64,000 bases of DNA from Mastigias papua (taxonomy: Eukaryota > Cnidaria > Scyphozoa > Rhizostomeae > Mastigiidae), in contig OZ025281.1 of assembly GCA_964019165.1 (NCBI GenBank), positions 12,521,888 to 12,585,887 of the forward strand, written 5' to 3'. A program made the translations under genes and the position numbers. The stretch's first letter is position 1, and every line of letters begins with the position of its first letter. Of this stretch, positions 190 through 56,175 are shown piece after piece. The notes under the pieces were generated by a model. That model was not told the origin of the DNA. It saw only the letters and a list, made by a program, of their open reading frames with translations, and made no database searches.

Positions 190-566
<377 letters not shown>

Positions 567-568
567 GT

Positions 569-1504
569 GGTGTCCTGGAGACAGATCTCTACTGCAAACC
601 CACTGATACACATCAGTATTTGCAGAAGACTTCTTGTCACCCAGGGCACGTTAAAAGAGCGATTCCATACAGTCAGGCTCTTAGAATAAGAAGAATATGT
701 TCAGATGAGGAGAAATTTAGAAATAGATCAGAAGATTTGGTAGGATGGTTAGTGCAGAGGGGATACAAGGAGAGCGTTGTTAGGGAACAGGTAGCTCGTG
801 CTAATAGTTTAGATAGAGCGACTCTACTAAGTCAGGAAAGTAGATGTAATGAGGAGAGGAAAGATCGTATTCCGTTTGTAGTATCATACCATCCAGCACT
901 TTGTGAGCTAAGGGGTTTAGTCAGTAGACTTCAAAACATGTTGGAGGCGTCTGAGGAACACAAGAGAGTGTTTCGACATGAGCCTCTTGTGGTATTCAGA
1001 CATGCCCCCAACCTTAAGGATAGTTTAGTTAGGGCCAAGCTTCCAAAGTTGCAGATAGAATCAGATAAGGGTTGTTTTAGATGCGGTAAATCGAGATGTC
1101 AGCTTTGTAGGTTCATGTCTGAGGGTAACAGTTTTAGATCCAATGTCTCTGGAAGTGAGTTTAAAATTAGCAGTAGATATACATGTGATTCGTCAGGGGT
1201 AGTATATTTATTAGGTTGTAAAGTTTGTGGTAAGCAGTATGTAGGTAGTACTTTTACGTCATTTAGGGTTAGATTTAATAATTACAAGTCAGCTAGCAGG
1301 AGGTATTCTAAGGGAGAAGTAGTCACACAGGCAGATTTTTTTAGACATTTTACTGAAGCTAATCATCACGGTTTTATGGAGGACGTTAGTTTTCAGATCA
1401 TAGACAGGGTTTTTGGGGAGTCTAGACATAGAGAAGGGTTTTGGCAGTTTAAGCTAGGTGGTTTTGCACCAGAAGGACTTAACGTCAGATTTGTAGACTC
1501 TTAA
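569..1504 (+). pseudogene. Penelope-like polymerase C-terminus with zinc motif and GIY-YIG endonuclease (5'-truncated)
   Basis: The frame is open from the end of the left arm. It starts in the motif TDLYCKPTDTHQYL, continues with SCHP and the KRAIPYSQALRIRRICSD block typical of the end of Penelope-like reverse transcriptases, and stops at TAA 1502-1504, about 311 residues in all. No genuine ATG opens it, because the whole palm domain is missing upstream. Near residue 170 a Cys cluster (CFRCGKSRCQLC, CX2CX4CX2C) precedes a GIY-YIG nuclease that begins GVVYLLGCKVCGKQYVGST and includes FRVRFNNYKSA. In this class the nuclease nicks the target so that the polymerase can prime. The frame has no internal stop, so truncation is the only visible damage. 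Confidence 0.85.
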
Positions 1505-18559: not shown

Positions 18560-19960
18560 TTATGATATTTTGTTGTTACATTCAAAATCCGTTTATTTTC
18601 TTCTCCACTCCAATCTGTTTTCTGCTAATTTCAAGTTCTGTTCTATTCTCTTTTCTCCAGTCATCTCTGAAACTGTGTCTATCCACTTGATTTTTCTCCT
18701 TCCTCTTCCTATCTCTTTGCTACTTGATCTTATTCACTCTCTTGGTACTTTACCAGCTGATCCTCTGGCCATATGACCAAAAATTGACATTGCCTACACA
18801 TTATCTTTTTAAAAATGCTGTGATTTCTGACTTCATTCTACTTAGTACTTCAGTGTACTTAGTCATTTTAATCTTCTTAATCTTCTCCACTTAATCTTCA
18901 GCAGTCTTCCATAGCACCAAAGTTCAAAGGAAGTAATTTTCTTGTTTAAAGTCTTTTTGAAACTAAAGGATTCTGAGCCATATCTAAAGACAGACCAAAT
19001 CATGGATTGTGGGAGTCTTTTTTTTAGTATCTAGATTTAAATCACTTGAGAGGAATTTCTTGCTTCTTCTTCTTCTTCTATTTCACCTAATATCTACCTC
19101 ATGATTAAGATTTTCATCCAGCAGTACTCCAAGATATTGAAATTTACTGACTTGCTCTATTCTTTCATCTCTAATTTTGACTTTAATTGTTTTATATCCT
19201 TTTGATGTAACTAGCATGGTTTTTGCCTTTTTCTTATTTATCTAAATAGAACATTTTTTACCAATATTTGAAAGCTTGTTCAGATATCTATTTAAGTCTT
19301 CTTCACTTTCAACCAGAATAACCTTGTCATCAGCATAAAATACATGATGAACTTTTAAGTTTCTGCTGATCTCAACCCCTTCCTCTTCTAATTGTTTGAA
19401 TGCTTCATCCACAAGAGTGTTAAAAAGAACTGGGGACAGTATGCAACCTTGTCTAACTCCACTTTTGATTGTAGTTTCTTGTGTCTTTCTTTTAGTGTCT
19501 CCTTTCATGTATGCTTTTTGTCTAGTATATATCTCATATAACAATGATATATCTCTATTGTGGACTCCTCTGTTTTGAAGAGCTTTGAATAGTAGACTAA
19601 ATCCAACTCTGTCACAGGCTTTTACAAAGTCAATGAAACATAGCACTGTGTCTTTTTTCAGGTTTAATCTGTTGGAGAGGGCAGTCTTTAGCATTGTGAC
19701 ACTCTCTATAGTTCCTACCTCTCGGTGAAATCCGTATTGCAATGGTCTATCTTGTCTAGAAGGTTACTGCTGATTCGCTCGTACATTACTTTTGATAGGA
19801 CTTCATAACATGTAGGAGTAAAGCAATAGTTCTGTACTCTTCTCATTTCAGTGTATTGCTCTGTTTTGCAATAGGGACAAATTGTGTTTCCAGCCATTCC
19901 TGTGGAATCTCTTCGCCGTTATAGATCCTCTGAATTAGATTTAGATTTACTATTTATCAG
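18560..19960 (-). pseudogene. 5'-truncated LINE: reverse transcriptase and C-terminus
   Basis: From 19,897 the frame gives a thumbprint of a reverse transcriptase. After one frameshift near 19,735, the 166-codon stretch has LCFIDFVKACDRVGFSLLFK (first Asp), SGVRQGCILSPVLFN and VFYADDKVILVESEEDL (catalytic ADD). Downstream at 18,780-18,640 the decayed C-terminus ends in GRRKIKWIDTVSE and AENRLEWRR, a common ending of RTE-like and related LINE ORF2 proteins. Several stops disable it. Clade assignment is uncertain. Confidence 0.82.
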
Positions 19961-23708: not shown

Positions 23709-24412
23709 ATTAGAGAGTTTACGATTCGCGACGCAGTGACTGAAGACGGCTTACAGAAGTCTAGGCACTAGCGCTGAAAGGGGGATCTCACTGTGCCTGA
23801 GTCGTCTTATCTATTTCCGCAAATAGCTTCGGCACATTTTCACGTCGTGATCGCAACGCAGATTTGAAAGGTAAGATTTATCAAAAATTTGTTTGTATTA
23901 TGTCTTTTTACGGATAATTTCGAAATCTTCGTTAACGTCAAGTGTCAACTGTATTCAATGAATTGGTTAATGTATGGAACAAAACTGTCTTTTCAGCACT
24001 CGTCGATTTGATATACTGTTGGCCTAATACTCCGGAATGGCAGCATTAAATACACTTGCAGAATCACACAAAAGAATTCTCACGTTTGTATTTAATCTCT
24101 ACTTTGTTGCAACAGTTCATTGCTATGATGAAGAACTGGAAGGAACATTAAAGCACACAGCTGCATGGCTTGTACTTCCCTGTTTACTGACATTTATATA
24201 GAATCGTAACATGTAATGGAGATACTGGTTATGTCATATCATTTATGATATAAATTTCGCGAAAATGTTCTCTTTCCTCAACTTGTCTTCATTAATTCTC
24301 CTGAGGTTATTAAATGTGGACATGAGTTAGTGATAAAAGCCTGAACATTGATTTCTACCCTTGGTTTCTTTGCTAAGAATGTTTATGTATCATTACCTTG
24401 ATTAGGCCAAAA

Positions 24413-25219
24413 ATGACTTGGACAGAAGAACACGACATTTTGCTGTGTCGAGAAATACTCGTGGAAGAGCCCTATACATTAAGGCATGGATCCAGGGAGA
24501 GGGGGAAATGTTGGGATCGCATAGCAGAGAACTTAAACAAAGTTGAACGGCCTAAGTTTTCTGTAGATCAGAGAGCAGTGCGAGACCGATATGTGAAATT
24601 GGAAAAGGGGTTCAAGAAAAAGACACGGGAAGAATTAAGGGCTAGTGGCATTGCACCAGGTGAAGTTTCTGAGTTAGACCAGGCCCTGGAAGATATAATT
24701 GAAAGGAGTGAGAATGCAGAAGAAGAAAAGGATGCTACTCGTCAAGAAAAGCAGCAAGAACAGGAGAAAGAAAAAGAAACTGCTGAGAGTGTGAGGAGAA
24801 GGGCAATGGAGAGCCTGTCACAGACCAGGGCAAGAGAAGGATGTAAGAAAAGAAAGGGTGGGGAGACAAGTGAATATGTGGGTTATTTAAGAGAGAAAAG
24901 AGAAATGGACATGAAAGTTAGGGAAAATCAAGTAGATTTGAAACGCAGGGAGGTTTTTCTGGAGGAAAGGAGAGTTGAAGGTGAAATACAGTTGAAACAG
25001 AGAGAGCTGATGTTGAAAGAGAGGGAGCTGAGTTTAAAAGAGAAAAAGCTGGAATTGAAAGAGAGAGAAAATGAAAATTTGCATCAGAGATTGTTGAGGT
25101 ATGAACAGCAACAAGCAATGATGCAACAGCAGCTCATTAGCATGCAAAATCAAATGAGCCAGATCCAGAAACAAAATGATGACATTTTGAATTTATTTTT
25201 TAAGACACAAGAGAAGTAA
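24413..25219 (+). CDS. Harbinger Myb/SANT-like DNA-binding protein
   Basis: The frame is open from 24398, but the first ATG is at 24413 (AAAATGACTTGG), giving about 268 residues. The N-terminus MTWTEEHDILLCREILVEEP, followed by RGKCWDRIAENLN and VDQRAVRDRYVKL, is the trihelix/Myb-like domain of Harbinger accessory proteins. Residues from about 85 onward are a long charged coiled coil (repeated KERELSLKEKKLELKERE-type heptads) ending in a Gln-rich segment. In Harbinger this protein binds the terminal repeats, brings the nuclease into the nucleus and is required for transposition. It faces the nuclease gene 870 bp away. No stop or shift. Confidence 0.9.
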   Translation: MTWTEEHDILLCREILVEEPYTLRHGSRERGKCWDRIAENLNKVERPKFSVDQRAVRDRYVKLEKGFKKKTREELRASGIAPGEVSELDQALEDIIERSENAEEEKDATRQEKQQEQEKEKETAESVRRRAMESLSQTRAREGCKKRKGGETSEYVGYLREKREMDMKVRENQVDLKRREVFLEERRVEGEIQLKQRELMLKERELSLKEKKLELKERENENLHQRLLRYEQQQAMMQQQLISMQNQMSQIQKQNDDILNLFFKTQEK

Positions 25220-26087: not shown

Positions 26088-27158
26088 CTAACCAAAGTAT
26101 TCTTCTAGAGTTGGAGGTCTCACTTCAAAGAAGGCAGCAGTGTTATTACCATACAAACATGTTAATGCATTGCGAAGTAGAGCACATACTATGTATATCT
26201 TGCCAACAGCACTCAGCCCAAGCTTTAGATTCTTTTTAAAGTCTGTGAATTTGAAGTAATTCACTACATCTCCAAATACCCATTCAACAGACACCCTAAC
26301 TTGGCTCATTGATTGATTGAATGCTTCTTCAGCCACTGTAAGATTTTGTCTACGAGCAAATGGGCACTGAATATGTATTCTATGTGGATATGCTGGATCC
26401 CCATAGATGCACATTGCCTGACCTGTAGGTGAGAAAGACATGTGTTGCAGTTGAGGAAGAAGACCTGACATTGCTAAGATTCCACTATCATGTCTTCTTC
26501 CTTCAACTGGACCAAAGAGATTTGCAATCAGACCATTTGGGGTTACAATGGACTGGAATTTTATGGCATGTACTCTCTTGTGGCCATTATACACCATTCT
26601 TTGGTTGTCCTTGGGTCGGCATATTGGCCTTACAGTGCCATCTATGAACCCCCAGCAGTTTTCTAATGCAGCACCTTTGTTGTGAATGGCATCTGCATAC
26701 ATCTGAAGATGGTGTGGAGCTAGCCAAGGCTGATCTAGGTTCTGCAATAAGTCACCATATCTATTAAACAGGTAATCAACCATATGGTTTGTTACCATGC
26801 ACAATTGTTGGACTGGTCTACCAAACCTTGGAAGAAGATCAGCATACCTGCATGGATACGTGAAACGCTTCAAGCATATGCATAGAGCTTCAACAGGTTG
26901 AAAAACTACTCCATTTTCCAACTTGATAATGTTCGGAAGGTGCAGTGCTGCAGCAAGCCTGTAAATATCTTGCTTTTTAAATCTAAATTCAACCTCACAT
27001 TCATCATCAGCAAGGTTTTCCAAGTCAAAACGTTCATACTTGTAATATGGCAGGCCTCCATGAAGATTTCTACGGCGGTTGACATCATAAAGGATAAGAA
27101 AATCCTCTTCATCAATCTCACCGTCATCATGCATCAGAACCAACATTTCATCCTCCAT
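26088..27158 (-). CDS. Harbinger transposase-derived DDE nuclease (HARBI1-like)
   Basis: 356 residues from ATG at 27158, uninterrupted. An acidic N-terminus is followed by a helical DNA-binding region (about 60-165), then the DDE_Tnp_4 nuclease fold. D173 lies in WGFIDGTVRPI, D224 in GPVEGRRHDSGIL, D254 in IYGDPAYP and E292 in SVEWVFG. Length and order match active Harbinger nucleases. It would cut at the terminal repeats and generate the 3-bp target duplication. Its reading frame starts about 150 bp inside the right terminal repeat. Confidence 0.93.
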   Translation of the reverse strand: MEDEMLVLMHDDGEIDEEDFLILYDVNRRRNLHGGLPYYKYERFDLENLADDECEVEFRFKKQDIYRLAAALHLPNIIKLENGVVFQPVEALCICLKRFTYPCRYADLLPRFGRPVQQLCMVTNHMVDYLFNRYGDLLQNLDQPWLAPHHLQMYADAIHNKGAALENCWGFIDGTVRPICRPKDNQRMVYNGHKRVHAIKFQSIVTPNGLIANLFGPVEGRRHDSGILAMSGLLPQLQHMSFSPTGQAMCIYGDPAYPHRIHIQCPFARRQNLTVAEEAFNQSMSQVRVSVEWVFGDVVNYFKFTDFKKNLKLGLSAVGKIYIVCALLRNALTCLYGNNTAAFFEVRPPTLEEYFG

Positions 27159-27313
27159 CTTACCTCAAAATCAATTTTGGCGCCTTATCTGAGTCGTCTG
27201 TGTCATTCGTAACAAGAATTTAACTCTCTAATCAGAACGCCTCAACTACTTTAGTACCTAGGCCTCCATGAGTCGTCTTCAGTCACCGCGTCGCGAATCG
27301 TAAACTCACTATT

Positions 27314-30082: not shown

Positions 30083-30087
30083 CCCAT

Positions 30088-30124
30088 GCACAGTGGGCTG
30101 GGACCTGGAAATTTCGAAAATTGG
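30088..30124 (+). repeat. Left terminal inverted repeat of the RAG1-like element
   Basis: The heptamer CACAGTG at 30088-30094 is followed by GGCTGGGACCTG (12 bases) and GAAATT at 30107-30112. Confidence 0.9.
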
Positions 30125-30840
30125 CCCCCCTCAAATTTTGTATTTGCTTCAAAGAGTCTTAAAATAGAAAGAAAAATCATTGCAGAAAAGCAAGAATCAA
30201 ATTGAAAGCTTGACTCTTTCCAAAGTTATAGCAGTTTGAATCTCAGCAAATCAACTATTTGTTGGTGGTCCACTTGCATATTATGTCCTGAGTTGCCAGA
30301 ACTTACCTATAATGTGACATTTCTCCAGACAAATTGAAAATTGAGCTTTTTCGTCATTTTCATATATGAAATGAACAGTTAGAAGCATAGTTTTTTTGGT
30401 GTTTAAGTTTTGGTAGTTTCCAATTCGTTAAATGGCAAGAATTTCCCTGTTTTTTAAGCAAAATTGATTTTAAAAATAGCAAATTCTGCGTAAAACGTCA
30501 CATTTTTTTGATAATAATTTCATGCGTTAGGGAAAAATCTCGAATTGCCATAAGCCAGACATAGTAAAGTACACATTTCCTGAAAGAATGGAATTTTAGC
30601 TGTTATTAAATCCATGTTTTGAAATGTCTGGCCTATGGCATCTCAAAAAAAACAGATTTGACGGGGAAGTAAGAAAGTCTACCATGGTCGGTCTCAAAAA
30701 TTGATGAAATTAGTATTCCCTCTAGTTATGTAGAAATATTAGGAAATAAATGTATATTATTTAGTAATGTCATTGTAAAAAGCCTCTTGGCAGTCAAGTT
30801 TCAAGAGCTGTCTTGAAAACTCAAAAATCAACAATTTAGT
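30125..30840. other. 5' non-coding region of the RAG1-like element
   Basis: About 700 bp between the left terminal repeat and the first credible coding frame. It presumably holds promoter and 5' untranslated sequence; nothing specific is recognised. Confidence 0.5.
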
Positions 30841-33579
30841 GTGAAACTTTCTGCCGAAATTTGGCGACCTTTTCATGAAAAAATTACAGTTGTGTACATG
30901 AAAGCTCTTATGAATATGTTTGGCACAGCTGTCGCTCTGGAAGATATTTTAGCAAAAAATTTCCGTCATTATGAAAAGATCAGGAACTGTCTTCACTGTT
31001 GTACCAATCTTTGCTTTTATAATAAGACACCCCAAATTAATGACTGGAAACAAAACAACTGTGTTGACATGAAAACAGTGGCATTTGCTATTGAAAAAAT
31101 TTCAAAAGTCACTGAGAAAGCCAGCGACAGACAAGACAGAAAAAACAGAATCTAGCGATTTTCTCAAAGGGGTAGAAGTCAGCTAATCCAAATTTGGATA
31201 ACATCAAACAAAGTTTTGATATTACAAACGCAGTAAAATGCTTTCGCACTTGCCCTATCGAGGAAGAGTGTGACAACATCTTACGTGAGTGCTGACGTGA
31301 TCGCAATCGTTCACTTGCAACGAACTTAAGGACTGAAAGTGATAAAAATTTCCCAAAACTGGGAAAACTTGTACATTTACAACATGAAATTGACTTGGGA
31401 TGAATTCTTCAACATCTGTCAAGCCCAAAAGCCCAATAATTTCAAGCCTCCAGATTGGGAAAAGGTGAAATCAGTGATAGTCGAGAAGCTTGCGGTGCTA
31501 GATGATGATCTGGTAAAGGATAAACTAAGTGTCTTGAGAACTCGCTACGGAAGATGCATCAAAGCACTCAGCTCCAAGACTAGTGCCGACAGAAAAGCGG
31601 AGTGCAGTGCTGTGGTACTTGACAGTGAGGAACTCAATCCAGTTGTCCTTGACGAGAAGCCACCATTAAAGAAAAGAAAAATAAAGTCACTTGATCAGCT
31701 AGGGGAGAAGCAATTGAAATATCGAACTGATGCTATATGGAAGAAGGTTGAAGAGTTTGCTGAAGAAAATGAAGAGTCAACATTACGAGTTATGGGAATG
31801 TTGCTAAAAAAATGTAAGGAAAAGAGTGCACGCGAGCTTGGTGATGAGATATGGCAACAACCAAGTTCATCACGGGAAACATCATCGTCCAGATCCAAGT
31901 TCATTTCAAAAGATGCTGCTATTGCCATCATGGTGAACTGTTCATTAGGTCGCGATACCTACTCAAAATTAAAGAAGATTCTGAAACAGCAAGGTCATGA
32001 TATTCTCCCCCTTGGATCCACATTAAAGCAGAACAGTCAAAAATCTCACCTAAACCCCAACCTTTACCTGTTCCACATGAAGGTGTTATGCTGACATATG
32101 TTGAATCTGTTTCTTTCACAGCACAGAGAATCATGGAAGACATGCCCATATCACTCATTCCAAATCCAGCTATCATGGACATCAAGTTTGGTTTTGATGG
32201 AAGTGGAAATCATGCAATTTACCGACAACTTAACAACGAGAAAACAAACAACATCATTATGACAATGTTTTGTCCACTTGCCTTAAAGTCTGAATCAGGT
32301 GAAGCTAAATGGTCTCAGAAGTCTCCTAACAGTGCCCTCACCCATCGCCCTTTGGCTTTACAGCTAGGTAGGAAGTCGAGCAAAACTCTTCAATCTTTGA
32401 CAGTGTTTGATGATGACATCAACAAAATGAAATCTGTTGGATGCAAGGTGAAAGTTGGGGATCTGGAGATTCCACTCAAGGTCAATGTTGCATCTCACAT
32501 GATGGACATGAAGGCAGCCAAGATATATCTTGGGCTTGGTGGAGCCTATTGTGATCTTTGCGAAACTTCAAAAGAAGATTTGCCACGATACCGATATTGT
32601 CGGTGAAGGTTTTGACATCACAAGAAATGTTGAAGATCTAAAAGGCTTGTTTAATGATCTTGGTCAAGATGATGGCTCTGTGTGGAAGGCACCACATGAC
32701 TATGGTATACGAAAGGGACTGACAGCCAAACCGATACCAGACCATGAAGTTACATCAGTTCAAGTTCTCCATTCATTGCTCAGGGTTTTCGATCATTACA
32801 TGAAGATCGCTGTACATCTCAGAGCTGCTGTTTTTATTTGGTCAGAGTCTCCCACAAGTCGAAGTCACCAGCTCTTGAAGAAGGCAAAGGCAGAAATCCA
32901 GGAGAAGATCGAGAATGAGATTGGGGAAAAATGGGATTATCCAGGTGGAACCGGCAATGGAGGGACAACTACAACTGGAAACACTGCCAGGAGACTTTTA
33001 TATGATGAGAAAGGGAGAGAGATTATCGTTCAGATGCTACCTGAGAAATATCAGCAGGTGATGAGGCAGATTGGGCAGTACCTGTCAGTAATTCTAAGGT
33101 TGTTTAGTTCCAGTAAAACTATAGATGTTACTGAGTACAGAAAATTGTGCACAACTCTCTACCTTCTGTATCTCCAGAGTTTTCCATCTCCTCACAATAC
33201 TGAAAAACAAACATGGATTAGCATCACTCCTTCATTGCATAAACTTCTTGGTCATTCTTGGGAGCTGATTGAGCTGAATGCTGATTGTGGACTTAAAAAC
33301 TTTGATGAGACTGGCCTTGAAGCTAACAACAAAATTCTGAGGTTGATCAGGCTTAAGCTTGCTAGAAAGACTTCACAGACTGCTAATCTTCATGATGTAA
33401 TTAACAGATTGTGGTTGGGATCTGATCCAAAAGTAAACAATATTTGCTTGAAGACTCAGCCATACCGTAGAAATTGCTGTGAATACGGGCATTCCAACAG
33501 ATATTGCAAGGCTAGAGAATCAATTCCAGGTCCACTGAGTGACGATGATACTTTGTTGCAAAATTTAATTGTTTTATGA
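30841..33579 (+). pseudogene. RAG1-like DDE transposase, several frameshifts
   Basis: The N-terminal part (30841-31320, shifted at least once) has Cys-rich patches NCLHCCTNLC and KCFRTCPIEEEC. From about 31,384 the frame runs MKLTWDEFFNICQ to 32,050, with a helical region like the RAG1 pre-core (LKYRTDAIWKKVEEFAEEN, AAIAIMVNCSLGRDTYSKL). An indel in an A-run near 32,040 leads to the catalytic core: FGFDGSGNHAIYRQL (D at 32196-32198, like RAG1 D600), PNSALTHRPLALQL, and YCDLC (like the RAG1 CxxC). A second shift near 32,580 leads to KAPHDY...AKPIPDHEV, VLHSLLRVFDHYMKI, GNTARRLL and DETGLEANNKILRLIRLKLAR, where E at 33319-33321 aligns with RAG1 E962. The residue expected to match D708 (LHCD) is Leu. 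It ends at TGA after 33,576. About 900 residues if continuous. Confidence 0.82.
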
Positions 33580-34080
33580 TTCGGTAGTTTTCTTCACATT
33601 CTTTAAAATACTTTTGTGCCTCTTATCTGGTACCATAGTGGGGAATAAAAAGGGCATTGGTCATAAGTAGAACCAATGTAAAGGGTGTTGTTTTAATAAA
33701 TTTCAAACCCCTCTCTCCCTCACACCCTCAGTTATGCACTTTCTCCACAATCAGGTGTTGCTTTCAAGTTTATCATATCAACAGAGCTTTCAGCTCGTAA
33801 AAAAGTAAGTACAACTGAAAGTGAAACTTTTTAGTTATCACATGATTCCACTAGCCCTTGAGTTTCTTGTGAGCCCTCAAACACGTTCCTTTTGTCATCC
33901 AAACTGAGAGAAAGGCAAATTCTGGATGTTTAGACCATCATGCCCAAATAAGGAAATTTGGCCCCAGATCCCAGATTTTGCGTATATGTTAGACTTTTTG
34001 ATGTCATCTGATTCGCCTTGTCTGTGTGCTTCTAACAAGCCCTCAACCACTTCCGTACGTAAATGTTTGGCTGAATTATG
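33580..34080. other. 3' non-coding region of the RAG1-like element
   Basis: Contains AATAAAAA near 33,645 as a possible polyadenylation signal. The overlapping ORFs 33895-34140 and 33926-34144 include the terminal repeat and have no kelch or PHD features. Confidence 0.5.
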
Positions 34081-34081
34081 C

Positions 34082-34118
34082 AATTTTTTCCATAATTTCG
34101 ATGCCCCAGCCCACTGTG
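34082..34118 (-). repeat. Right terminal inverted repeat of the RAG1-like element
   Basis: CACTGTG at 34112-34118 is the inverted heptamer. Inward on the minus strand it reads GGCTGGGGCATC (12 bases) and then GAAATT. Confidence 0.9.
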
Positions 34119-34123
34119 CCATG

Positions 34124-40639: not shown

Positions 40640-41646
40640 TATTATCATTCCAAAACACTTAAGCAAATTCGTAAAAATTTAAATAACTTAAATAGACAAC
40701 TTAAACGTGAATATTTCTCCAAAAAATTACAGTTCCTCAGGGTTCTTGTCTTGGTTCACTCTTATTCGTGATTTACATTAATGATCTGCCTCTTTCTCTG
40801 CAAAAATCTCATGTTAGCATGTATGCCGATGACACGGCTATCTCGCTCTCTTCAAAAAGCATCGATGACCTACAGAACGACCTAAACGTAGATCTTTTGA
40901 AGCTACAAGATTGGCTGCATGCAAGCAAACTTTCTTTAAATGTTGTGAAAATACAGTCACCTATTATGAGTTCTGGCCCAAACCTCCTTAGGATCGAAGG
41001 ACAGACAGATGTTCAACCATGTTTTTCTGAAGGTGATCAAGCAATTGATACGATTACTGATACAAGGTATCTAGGTCTTCAGATAGACATCCAACTAGAA
41101 TGGGATAAACACATCGACACTATAAAGACCAAGGCTAATCGTTCCCTTGCATTTATTAACTATTCAAAGAAATACCTTCCACCAACAAAGTGTACAGAGG
41201 AATTGTTGAGACCCATTTGAGTTACTGTTGCTCCGTCTGGGGCTGCGGTAGTGAATCCAAAATTAGCGCTTTGCAAAAAATCCAAAATAGAGCAGCAAGA
41301 ATTGTAACAAATAGCCCTTTGATGCCTCTGCTGCTCCGCTAATTCAGAAACTTGGTTGTTCAGCTATCAGTACACTTGTAAAAAAGAGACCACGATGCTG
41401 ATTTACGAGTCTCTGAATTCGCTTGTCCCTCACCACTTGAGAAAATTATTCATAACATGTTCAGATGACAGAGAATGGTCTCTGCGCTCATCAGATTCTG
41501 ATGTTAGGATACCGTTACTGAGAGCGATCAATGGCCAAAAGGCGATCTCTTTTCGCGTTGCAAAGCTCTGGAACAGTTTAGAAAGAGAAACAAAATCGGC
41601 GCCCTCCCTGAAAATTTTCATAAAACAACTATCGAAGGGGTTATAG
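40640..41646 (+). pseudogene. LINE ORF2 with internal deletion, 3' part
   Basis: The 5' portion (to about 40,728) reads RRAFNYYYHSKTLKQIRK and LKREYFSKK, the segment normally before the polymerase. It joins directly to VPQGSCLGSLLFVIYINDL, VSMYADDTAISL (catalytic YADD) and DTRYLGLQID, so most of the polymerase N-terminus is missing. After a stop at 41218-41220 the C-terminal region continues in other frames: HLSYCCSVWGCGS, IQNRAARIVTNSP, YESLNSLVPHHLRKLF, then FRVAKLWNSLERETKSAPSL. Jockey/CR1-like. Confidence 0.85.
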
Positions 41647-44835: not shown

Positions 44836-44999
44836 AATTAGTACGTGAAAATTGTACCCCCAAAAGTTGTGCGAACTTCCGAATGGATGGTGCTATTAGT
44901 ACGTCAAAAATCAATAGGAAAGTGTATGGAGAAAATGGTTGTGCGAATGTGGTGAAGGTATTGGAATACTACGCTGAAGAAAAAGATATCTTCCTCTAA
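44836..44999 (+). other. Unidentified coding-like remnant
   Basis: The open frame reads CTPKSCANFRMDGAISTSK, INRKVYGENGCANVV and KVLEYYAEEKDIFL before TAA. Composition looks protein-like, with spaced cysteines, but I recognise no family. It abuts the LINE fragment that begins at about 45,001 and may be the target-side remnant or part of another repeat. Confidence 0.3.
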
Positions 45000-45000
45000 C

Positions 45001-45600
45001 TACAGTTCAGTCACTGTATAGAAGCATTATTAAACCACATTTCAGATTCTGCTGTTCGGTATGGGGAGTCTGCAGTGCTACCGCGCTTGATAAACTACAG
45101 AAACTACAAAATCACGCTGCTAGGATAGCTACAAATAGCCCTTACGATGCGCCGTCTCAGCCACTGCTAGAGAAAGGATGGCAACCTATAAAAGAACTTA
45201 TTAATATTGAAACGGCCATGATGGTGTATCGATCAATGAATAATGAAGCACCCAGCTACCTTACGAGTCTGTTCGAAAGGTCGTCTCAAAATACTGTTAG
45301 GAAGCTTCGAAATACAAAGATTGATCTTAATTTGCCTCTTTTTAAAACTTCCAGAGTCCATAAATGCTTCTCTTATAGAGGAGCACAACTCTGGAATAAT
45401 CTAAGTGCTGATGCCAAAAATGCGCAAACTCAATTTCAGTTCAAAAATGCATACTGTATCAGTAAGGAGTCCTTTGTTAACTCTGTTACTTTTTAATTAC
45501 ATTCAAATTTTCTTGTCTATTATATTATTGTATGTAGTTCTTATTGTAATTTCTTGTTTTATACGACTGTAATTAGATTATTTAGTTTCTTTATGTATAT
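45001..45600 (+). pseudogene. 5'-truncated LINE ORF2 C-terminus
   Basis: It starts YRSIIKPHFRFCCSVWGVC, then LQKLQNHAARIATNSPYDA, and after a shift MMVYRSMNNEAPSYLTSLFE and FSYRGAQLWNNLS to TAA at 45,494-45,496. This is the conserved C-terminal region of Jockey/CR1-type elements, homologous to 41,221-41,646. AT-rich 3' tail to about 45,600. Confidence 0.85.
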
Positions 45601-47523: not shown

Positions 47524-48470
47524 CTAAAGACCAATCACCGGCCACCCGAAGTGAGACCCCTTGTACGTTACACTTGTCTCCTGAATATCGTGTGCATGCC
47601 ACATGAGCATCCAAACTATAATATCATTAACACATTGCTCCATTGCAATAACACTTTCAGCGGTAGATTTAGTGTCAGGATTAAATGATATATATAATTG
47701 ATGATAATCAGCATGGACGAAAGGAAGACTTTTGCTAATCATATCATAGAGAGAGCTAGTGTACGTAACAAAGCGTATGGGCACAAGGTAGCTGCCTTGG
47801 GGGCACCCCACAGGTAAAATTATTTGGTTCAGAACAAACATCTTTTACAAGAACTTTTTCCTGTCTAACATCCAGGTAAGGTTTGAACCATTTAAGCACA
47901 GTTCCAGATGTTCCAAATTGACCTTCAAGTGCTGAAAATAAGACGCTATACGAAACACTGCCAAAAGCTGCACTCAGATCAAGCAGCACAAGCAGAGTAA
48001 CATTTTGACTGTCCATACTCTCAAACATATCTGACTGAACTTTAAGTAAAGCTGTTTCTGTACTGTGATATTTCCTATAGGACGAAGCATGACTTGGTAT
48101 TAATCCATTGCACTCATTTTGGTCTCTCAGTTGAGTGACAACTGCACTTTCGACAAGTTTCGACAAATAAGGCAAATTACTGACAGGCCTAAAGTTCTTG
48201 AAAATGAGGTCCAGTCCAAATTTTTTTAGCAGAGGTATAACCAGAGCGCATTTCCAGGTAATGTGGAAGTATCCTAAGCGAAGATACAGGTTGATAATTG
48301 ATGTTATGATGGAAAGCAATAAGTCAAGACATTTCTTGAGCAACCAGGTTAGGATTGACCCAAACTACAACTCTTGCTTGCAGATTTCGTGATTATTTTC
48401 TTGACCTCATCTTCAGTCAGCAGGTTAAATTCAGAGAAAGGAATATTAAGGTCTTTTGCCTTCATTTCTT
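47524..48470 (-). pseudogene. LINE reverse transcriptase fragment (CR1/L2-type), frameshifted
   Basis: The minus-strand frame begins LTEDEVKKIITKSASKS at about 48,410, then LLKKCLDLLLSIITSIINL, KNFRPVSNLPYLSKLVESAV, YHSTETALLKVQSDMFESM, LVLLDLSAAFGSVSYSVLF (first Asp), and after a shift VGCPQGSYLVP and FVHADYHQLYISF. The YADD box has decayed to HADY, and Q replaces nothing essential in CPQGS, but the polymerase cannot be active. 5' and 3' ends missing. Confidence 0.87.
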
Positions 48471-53473: not shown

Positions 53474-54460
53474 GTGATTTTGATGGCATTGATAAGCTTG
53501 ATTAAGAAGTCTGAAATGTACTGAAAAACCTGACAGCTTTGCTCAACCTAATGAATTAGCAAAGGTCTTAGATGTGTATTGATTGTAAGTAAAACTCTAC
53601 CAGATTTCTATAGTATATTCAAGTTTGAACACATGGATGAAAACAAACGTAGGATCATGTGATGAACGTAAGTGGGATAGAATTGCAAATAGGCTTTCCA
53701 TTTAATTGGCCAACCGCAACATGCATAAGGATATTTAGTTTAGAATAGTACGCGATATTTTATTGAAATGGCATCATAGAGCTTCCAAGGTGATATTTTC
53801 AGTTCCACAAACTTATGCCAACCCAAAACAAAAGCATCGCCCGCCATTTTTGCTAGCTAGAGACATAAAATACTGGCAATGGGCTTGATTCGATTTGATG
53901 TATATCTGTCTTTCATCTCACTCTGTAAGAGTACTTATAATTTGGTTAACATGTTATTTCTTGCAGTGTATCTCATACTGCAATACTTACCATCAAGGCA
54001 ATCACTATCATCTAAAGTATTTCTAAAGCTTTCCACTACAGACCACTTTTTGATTTGCTACTTGGTGTAAGACATTTGCTCTAGTGTATATATTATGATT
54101 GCGTTATACAATCTTGATACAGCAATCATTTAACTTTCTGTTTGATTAACTTTCTATTTGGCTTTACATAAATCATTTGTATATTTTGAAGTCAGTTTAC
54201 AGTAGGGCTGAAAAACCCGACCTAGTGTCAGACAAAACAATTTATATTTTCATTTCGACTCAATGCTGGATAGCTGCCTATTTGCCAATCATAGGGCCAA
54301 CTGGACACAGCATTCACCTTTCAGTCGTTATCCGACGTTTCATACTCTCAGGAGTGTCGGAAGAGAAGAGAGTGATAGAATGTCACTTCCTTTTCGAGCT
54401 ATAGTAAAGTTCTGTAGTACAAAAAGGCTACTCAAATTTATCTTTTTGTATTTTGCTTAG
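53474..54460. other. Intron-like stretch with MITE remnant
   Basis: 54,290-54,375 (CACCTTTCAGTCGTTATCCGAC, GTTTCATACTCTCAGGAGTG) is a piece of the 28.8-kb fold-back family, so ORFs 54177-54404 and 54263-54460 are not genes. Confidence 0.55.
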
Positions 54461-56175
54461 ATGACTTGAGGAGAAAGTATGACATATTAACCAAAAGCCA
54501 CGGAACTCCATGTTGGAGTGATCATTGCATTGTCACAAAAGTGGTTCCAATCCAACAATTTGACATTGAATTAACAATGACACTGAAGACACAATATCAC
54601 CTCAATGGCAACGAGGAAAGTTTGTCAAAAAGTCCAAACACAATTAAGCTGGACCGATTGATCGATGATACAACACGAGTCACTTTTATAAGTGGAATTC
54701 CGGGAAGTGGCAAATCGGTGCTTTCCAAGCAGATCGTCAATGCTTGGGCAAATCGGAAATTGTACAGAAACTTTGAGTTATGTCTATACTTCGAATGTAG
54801 CGAATTGAACAAGCATTTTGTTTGTGATCCCAGAAGGAAAGAACTATGCAGTCAAAAAGAAAGTCTCCAGGAGTTCATTAATAAGAAGTTGGATGGCTTG
54901 AGCTCCAAAAATCTTCTCATAGTTATAGATGGTGTTGACGAATTGCATGATGTTAGCTGCGAGAAATCTGTGATACATCAGTTTCTTGATATTAAGCAAG
55001 GCTACGGATCATCCAAGGTAATCATAACAGGGCGACCTCACACGATAAGTGTACTCTCAAAACTTATGATCGATTCTGGAGGATATAAAATACTGGAAAT
55101 AAACGAGCTAGATGACCAAAGCATCAGAAATTGCATATCTAAATTTTTCACACACTACAAGGAAAGGGAGTCAATTTGCAGCACCATTACCTCGCTGGGG
55201 AACATCCGTCCATTGTTGCGAGTAGCACAATTCTTACACGGTATTTGTTGTATTTTTATCTCCAATGGAAGAGGCGAGCCTAGGAACGAAGCTGAAATAT
55301 ACACATGGACACTGTATCTATACCTAAAGCAGCATTTCTTCGAAAGAGAGAAAATTAACGATAAGCGACTCGCTTCTACCGTGTTCGAACGGTATAGTAA
55401 AACAATACTATATATTTCGGAAATCGCGTTCGATGTGTACTCAAAGGGCACTGTCGTCTTTAAGAAAGAAGAGTACAGATATTTCTTTGGTACATACTAT
55501 AAGGAAGAAGCTTCAGATGGGGAGAGGAGGATAATCGACTCAATCTTTACAGATGCCTCAGATAATCGTAAAGATCTGCGTCAATTCTTACCAGTAATGT
55601 TCTTGGAATATTTATCTGCAATTCATGTCTATAATATCTCAAATGAGGGGAATCAAAATGCAACTATTGGGAGGCTTTTGAGCACGGAATTATTTGGCAG
55701 TGTTCGCTTGGCTTGTGCTCTGTATGGGGGAGTCTGTGAAGATGGAATCATAAGAGATTTGCTTGTATGTCTGGAAAAAGTAGGAAAGAACAAGAAAACC
55801 TGGATTCACTATAATTTTGAAAGAAGAGAGTATTCTAAGTACTTTGTTTTTAACGTTATCAACTTAACTCTTGCACCTCAATGCAACGAGAAAACAAGAT
55901 TCTCGATATCAATTGATTTCCTGTGTCAGTATTTGTTCCCAGATTTCAGGGGTATCTACACTTTGAGGTGCATTTTGAAATTGTTTCATAGGTTATCAGA
56001 TATAGTTTCTCTTAGAGAATCTGTGGATAGGAAGAAAATAGATCATTTAACTAAGGTCCTCAAAGACATTGGAGTACAAGAGAGTGATATCCAAGCTGCT
56101 TTCGGCTCTGGTGGGGCTCCTTCCGGAATTGTACGTACCACTGATCTGTCAGCAGTTCTCATCCCCCACAAATGA
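54461..56175 (+). CDS. NACHT-domain (NLR-type) protein, terminal exon
   Basis: The acceptor TTTTTGTATTTTGCTTAG ends at 54460. AT completes a phase-1 codon, then DLRRKYDILTK opens a 570-residue frame to TGA at 56173-56175. No ATG starts it, so earlier exons must supply the N-terminus. Numbering from 54466, Walker A is GIPGSGKS (77-84), Walker B LLIVIDGVDEL (150-160, with D155, D158 and E159), and the sensor-1 Arg lies in VIITGRP (185-191). ANRKLYRNFELCLYFECSEL is typical of the NLR NACHT core. The C-terminal 350 residues are helical, without recognisable LRR, WD40 or TPR repeats. NACHT proteins are nucleotide-switch oligomerising sensors, often in innate immunity. No frameshift. Confidence 0.88.

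Follow-up and report, generated by a model that had tools for sequence, protein, structure and literature searches.

RAG1 and its recombination signals are thought to be derived from a transposon of the Transib or RAG-like (RAGL) type, and the steps that led from the one-gene Transib to an element with both RAG1 and RAG2 are debated. A 64,000-nucleotide stretch of the Mastigias papua genome (the window) holds a transposon with RAG1-like features whose ends begin with the heptamer of the V(D)J recombination signal sequence (RSS), which raises the question of where among these elements it belongs. The element, at 30089-34118 of the window on the forward strand (4,030 bp), is very probably a copy of a cut-and-paste transposon of the RAG1/Transib superfamily, recently mobile and now defective, from a RAG2-less clan that fits the published description of the Subgroup I Transibs. 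It appears to join a branch already described and to be neither a newly found ancestor nor a missing link.

Boundaries and terminal sequences

The transposon, delimited by its ends and by a whole-element genome search, carries exact 14-bp terminal inverted repeats (TIRs), CACAGTGGGCTGGG at 30089-30102 (forward strand) and the reverse complement of CACAGTGGGCTGGG at 34105-34118 (reverse strand). It is flanked by the unstranded target site duplication CCATG at 30084-30088 and 34119-34123. The original prediction, made from the letters of the window, had described identical ends with CCATG on each side, and these are as described, but its start at 30083 lies one base outside the duplication. The 5′ repeat opens with CACAGTG (30089-30095), the RSS consensus heptamer as given in PMC8289069, and this heptamer is found at 17 of the 18 ends of nine aligned copies. 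In most other complete copies the first 16 bp are CACAGTGGGCTGGGGC at each end.

The ends had been called RSS-identical, which holds for the heptamer and fails for the remainder of the signal: in the window copy and the copy on contig C8, the nonamer ACAAAAACC was matched at no more than five of nine positions at spacers of 11-13 and 22-24, and 12/23 spacing is absent. Nor is an RSS-identical heptamer alone new, since PMC6941560 states that the RAG heptamer and nonamer recur unchanged in some Transibs; the heptamer of ProtoRAG is given as CACTATG, with spacers of 27 and 31 bp, in PMC8289069. The strongest form of the prediction, in which the element is a direct relic of the one behind the vertebrate V(D)J signals, draws on the near-constant heptamer, and is already disfavoured by the lack of nonamer and 12/23 spacing, by a protein that falls outside RAG1L (below), by the heptamer CACAATG, which in the related C20 family is carried by 20 of the 21 detected 3′ ends, and by the generality of RSS-like heptamers among Transibs that PMC8289069 and PMC6941560 indicate. 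We consider it exceedingly unlikely.

Copies in the genome and mobility

In the 346.8-Mb genome the 14-mer was found 25 times, whereas the same letters read backwards, used as a control, gave no occurrence, so the ends are not a product of chance. A search with the whole element returned at least 49 matches, of which five are full-length copies of about 4.03 kb: that in the window and those at C8:4639090, C19:4381307, C6:13322934 and C11:3308615. The latter four are 97-98% identical to the window copy, and any two of the five are 97.6-99.3% identical to each other. An uninterrupted frame of 731 codons is present in the C8 copy. The window copy is defective: two frame changes divide its coding region into three reading-frame pieces, and Arg stands in place of the first Cys in its C-terminal CTT1 motif.

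Four deleted copies of 2,372-2,393 bp have one internal deletion junction in common, and two shorter derivatives with both ends were found, one of 356 bp on C5 and one of about 338 bp at C6:15409228-15409565. Perfect 5-bp duplications flank eight of the 11 two-ended copies found, and all eight differ (CCATG, CCTTC, GGGGT, CACTG, CACGA, CTCTG, CAGTA and CATTG); the other three match at 4 of 5 positions (C6:13322934), 3 of 5 (C6:15409228) and 1 of 5, with the outermost element base taken as mutated in the first two. The search for further copies that the original prediction had proposed therefore found both ends and duplication length retained. These findings imply that the family, short derivatives included, moved recently by cut-and-paste, and the combination of a common junction with four different duplications indicates that the deleted derivatives were mobilised in trans. 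On this evidence a present-day copy may still be active.

Transposase sequence and predicted fold

The transposase of the window copy lies in three fragments on the forward strand. Fragment 1 (31384-32094, frame 1), in which homology stops near 32025, holds the N-terminal part and a part resembling the nonamer-binding domain (NBD) and the dimerization and DNA-binding domain; fragment 2 (32001-32606, frame 0) holds the first and second Asp of the Asp-Asp-Glu (DDE) triad and a CxxC; and fragment 3 (32512-33579) holds the ZnB segment, an HxxxxH, the catalytic Glu and the CTT1 motif minus its first Cys. The triad consists of the Asp of DGSG at 32196, a second Asp at 32505 and the Glu before NK at 33319. 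Residues D272, D375 and E646 are invariant across 22 aligned sequences, and the match to RAG1 uses what we take to be the catalytic residues of that protein. The RLIRLKLAR stretch is also present, so that the core features first pointed out in the window are there. In the intact C8 copy the CTT1 motif, Cx2Cx3GHx4C, is found, and its Cys and His residues are invariant in the same 22 sequences; it is described as CTT* in PMC7204232 and is also named in PMC9435367.

When the joined protein was searched against PDB sequences, HzTransib scored 83.9 bits versus 28.7 bits for BbRAG1L, and HMMER alignments of the family's protein to HzTransib and RAG1L were obtained. Among proteins of solved structure HzTransib and RAG1L/RAG1 come closest, and no other DDE superfamily is nearer, which bears out the proposed superfamily. 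Fragment 3 scored 23.6 bits with Pfam RAG1, below the cut-off of 25; among eight relatives scanned with this profile, P0001, P0002, P0010, P0020 and P0051 were above the cut-off, P0042 was below it, and P0069 and P0072 gave no match. The predicted fold of a close relative (61-65% identical) resembles RAG1 and HzTransib, and by this predicted fold the two tie as closest. In relative P0002, helices are predicted at 399-404 and 412-422, in the RAG2-binding ZnB region. The window family differs from vertebrate RAG1 in having no RING match in the protein of the intact copy (Pfam, E 0.1) and in an identity of about 20% over the aligned predicted fold, as it differs from the RSS in nonamer and spacing.

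Relatives and phylogenetic placement

A protein search yielded at least 75 proteins; among the matches listed, 74 are relatives and P0075 is a distant Transib. Organisms given among those matches include Bolinopsis microptera (38% identity) and Nymphon striatum (35%), most of the matches being without a name. Relative P0001 is 98% identical and encoded on a 1.22-Mb contig, so that this host, or one close to it, presumably has a second record. The 74 relatives were compared with 43 RAG1L proteins and with 43 Transibs of HzTransib type (P0075 and 42 matches among those listed), a label assigned here to a set of which the 18 members placed in the tree all group with HzTransib. The CTT1 motif was found in 46 of 74 relatives, 23 of 43 RAG1L proteins and none of the 43 HzTransib-type proteins. 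The distance between the zinc CxxC and LH served as a proxy for the RAG2-binding segment; its medians in these sets are 68, 66 and 31 residues, as measured in 68, 27 and 35 proteins, respectively.

The phylogenetic tree, which is unrooted, was built from 57 rows picked by length and spread. HzTransib falls in a group of 19 rows (support 100/100), RAG1L and BbRAG1L form a group of 16 rows (100/100), and 22 rows (85/51) make up the window clan, among them a ctenophore protein (P0051, from Bolinopsis). In the approximately unbiased (AU) test, forcing the near clade of the window protein together with the HzTransib group was rejected (p 0.002). Judged by sequence, the protein belongs to a third clan, outside both the RAG1/ProtoRAG and the canonical Transib groups; the term RAG1-like, where it was meant as RAG1 or ProtoRAG, is not supported.

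These comparisons bear on two alternatives. In sequence no PDB entry matches better than HzTransib, which also shares first place by predicted fold, as would be expected of a canonical Transib (Subgroup II, HzTransib type; PDB 6pqn and 6pqx) whose RAG1-like features are convergent. That set, however, is without CTT1, has a short ZnB segment in the 35 of 43 proteins where it could be measured and occupies a separate, fully supported branch, and the AU test also argues against this origin, which we regard as very improbable. Slightly less so, though still improbable, is a true RAGL (RAG1L-RAG2L) transposon minus RAG2L, that is, a degenerate element of the ProtoRAG type (PDB 6b40). The CTT1 motif and long ZnB segment common to the window clan and RAG1L would fit such an element, as would the Pfam RAG1 matches above the cut-off in five of the eight relatives, whereas the separation from the 16 RAG1L rows, the higher score of HzTransib and the lack of a RING match in the intact protein speak against it. 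So does size, since the five full copies of the window family, like the complete copy in the related C20 family (3,953 bp), have space for one gene.

Searches for RAG2 and RAG1L

No RAG2L gene was recognised in the element, in agreement with the apparent lack of a RAG2 partner noted at the outset, although a gene made of many tiny exons might escape recognition. In the intact C8 copy the single 731-codon frame is flanked by about 1.3 kb on its 5′ side and 0.54 kb on its 3′ side; 13 other stop-to-stop frames of 61-88 amino acids were listed, and none of the six scanned was above a Pfam cut-off. A genome-wide search with the RAG2 Pfam profile gave no match, but it was run without a positive control and does not establish absence from the genome. 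A tblastn search with oyster RAG1L found nine matches in the genome at 42 bits or less, each to this family or its C15 and C20 kin, and therefore no closer RAG1L was detected in the assembly, a further point against a degenerate RAGL element. According to Kapitonov and Koonin (2015), all Transibs known earlier encoded the transposase alone.

Comparison with Subgroup I Transibs

Subgroup I Transibs were described by Tao et al. (2022; PMC9435367) as having CTT1, a RAG2-binding ZnB region, asymmetric TIRs and a transposase gene without RAG2L, and as being nearer to RAG1L than Subgroup II is. A figure legend of that paper places ctenophore and Hydra Transibs beside RAG1L, and these are presumably the Subgroup I elements. 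Compared with this description, the window family is alike in its lack of a recognised RAG2L, its CTT1 motif, its RAG2-binding ZnB segment (by the spacing proxy) and the ctenophore protein in its clan. It is unlike in that TIR asymmetry, which all Subgroup I elements are said to have, gives an ambiguous signal in the window family, while it is clear in the sequences of its relatives C20 and C15. The family is named in none of the literature found, a search that left most subscription papers and Repbase outside its scope.

Several observations weigh against placing the element as a recently mobile member of this RAG2-less clan. The Pfam RAG1 profile matches neither the joined protein nor the intact 731-amino acid protein, frames are interrupted in four of the five full-length copies (that of the window included), and the full-length copy lacking a matching duplication is C19:4381307. 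The branch that sets the window clan apart has only the 85/51 support given above, and the AU test rejects placement with RAG1L no more than marginally (p 0.037), for a group named after inspection of the tree. Membership of Subgroup I appears from the text of Tao et al. and not from a comparison of sequences, and the end asymmetry said to mark all of its elements is, as noted, ambiguous here.

Ends of related families

Of everything observed in this analysis, the asymmetry of the C20 ends is the most interesting. The element at C20:10931363, whose protein is 32% identical to that of the window family and has no internal stop, ends in CACAGTGGGCTCGT (5′) and CACAATGGGCCCAG (3′) and is flanked by a perfect duplication, CCCTA; the score of these ends plus duplication was reached by 2 of 60 shuffles. 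An 11-bp block, AAGCGGACATT, is separated from the heptamer by 7 bp at the 5′ end and by 17 bp at the 3′ end. Allowing up to three mismatches, the 5′ end was found at 36 genomic places (19 exact) and the 3′ end at 21 (17 exact), with none for either backwards control. Of the 21 3′ places, 20 have a 5′ place 1.0-4.0 kb away, in a comparison that covered 20 of the 36 5′ places; the remaining 16, all with two or three mismatches, have no partner among the 3′ places listed. The search patterns fix the spacing, and copies spaced otherwise would escape detection, so the 20 pairs show the spread of a 7/17 family and not the failure of other pairings.

The full C20 copy (C20:10930567-10934519), RAG2-less and with an uninterrupted transposase frame, was accompanied by 19 shorter copies with its ends, of about 1.01 kb (10 copies), 1.22 kb (1), 1.54 kb (6) and 1.82 kb (2).

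Two further relatives have matching sequences at their two ends. The element at C15:11117783 (45% protein identity) has CACAGTGGGCTGA at each end and no matching duplication (1 of 5), and an 810-bp element on C1 has CACAGTGGGCTGG at each end, with a duplication of 4 of 5. In C15, an inner block offset by 9-10 bp, an offset chosen after inspection of the data, is the best match (shuffle p 0.0004). For the C1 element the p value is 0.018 for this offset and 0.008 for a symmetric match. In the window family an offset of 9 bp scores 6 (shuffle p 0.017), an equal score is given by an offset of −8, and two offsets, 0 and 3, score higher, at 7 (p 0.009 over the range −1 to 1).

It is conceivable, and we offer it tentatively with the balance somewhat against it, that ends of this clan are two-part and asymmetrically paired, consisting of CACA[G/A]TG and a second block that lies deeper at one end than at the other, by roughly a helical turn (9-10 bp). 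If so, single-gene transposons would have had a pairing rule like 12/23, along with CTT1 and the RAG2-binding segment of ZnB, before the acquisition of RAG2.

Proposed mechanism

A transposase dimer would bind the heptamer CACAGTG and the neighbouring GGGCTGGGGC at each of the two ends, and the CTT1 zinc motif and the NBD-like N-terminal part may read the inner TIR. The DNA would be nicked at CAC and then cleaved, probably by the nick-hairpin route of RAG and HzTransib, and insertion with a 5-bp stagger would give rise to the target duplications.

Other features of the window and assembly

Elsewhere in the window, a DDE_Tnp_4 transposase frame at 26088-27164 (reverse strand) belongs to what we take to be a PIF/Harbinger-type element, and a nearby coiled-coil-rich frame at 24377-25219 (forward) may be the second gene of that element. 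A 585-amino acid open frame at 54418-56175 (forward) has a NACHT domain. The frame at 563-1504 (forward) has a weak GIY-YIG match, below cut-off, and is possibly part of a Penelope-like retroelement. Reverse-transcriptase-like frames at 19242-19763 and 47756-48364 (reverse) and at 40711-41220 and 44978-45496 (forward) resemble, by eye only, remnants of long interspersed nuclear elements. In the assembly, contig C121 has five COX1 matches unlike the mitochondrial COX1 on C172, possibly from a symbiont or other organism.

Implications for the origin of RAG

The relevance to the origin of RAG claimed for this locus remains as usefulness for study and not as a missing link, since such a lineage appears to be in print (PMC9435367), and such heptamers are (PMC6941560). 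The single copy in the window settles neither whether asymmetry of the ends matters nor what the ZnB segment does. The genome as a whole holds several families of the RAG2-less clan, which has CTT1 and the RAG2-binding segment in common with RAG1L. At least two of these families include a copy whose frame is uninterrupted, along with short derivatives and ends that are defined, and so offer testable pairs of enzyme and ends. Such pairs would address whether end asymmetry matters without RAG2 and whether the ZnB segment acts before RAG2.
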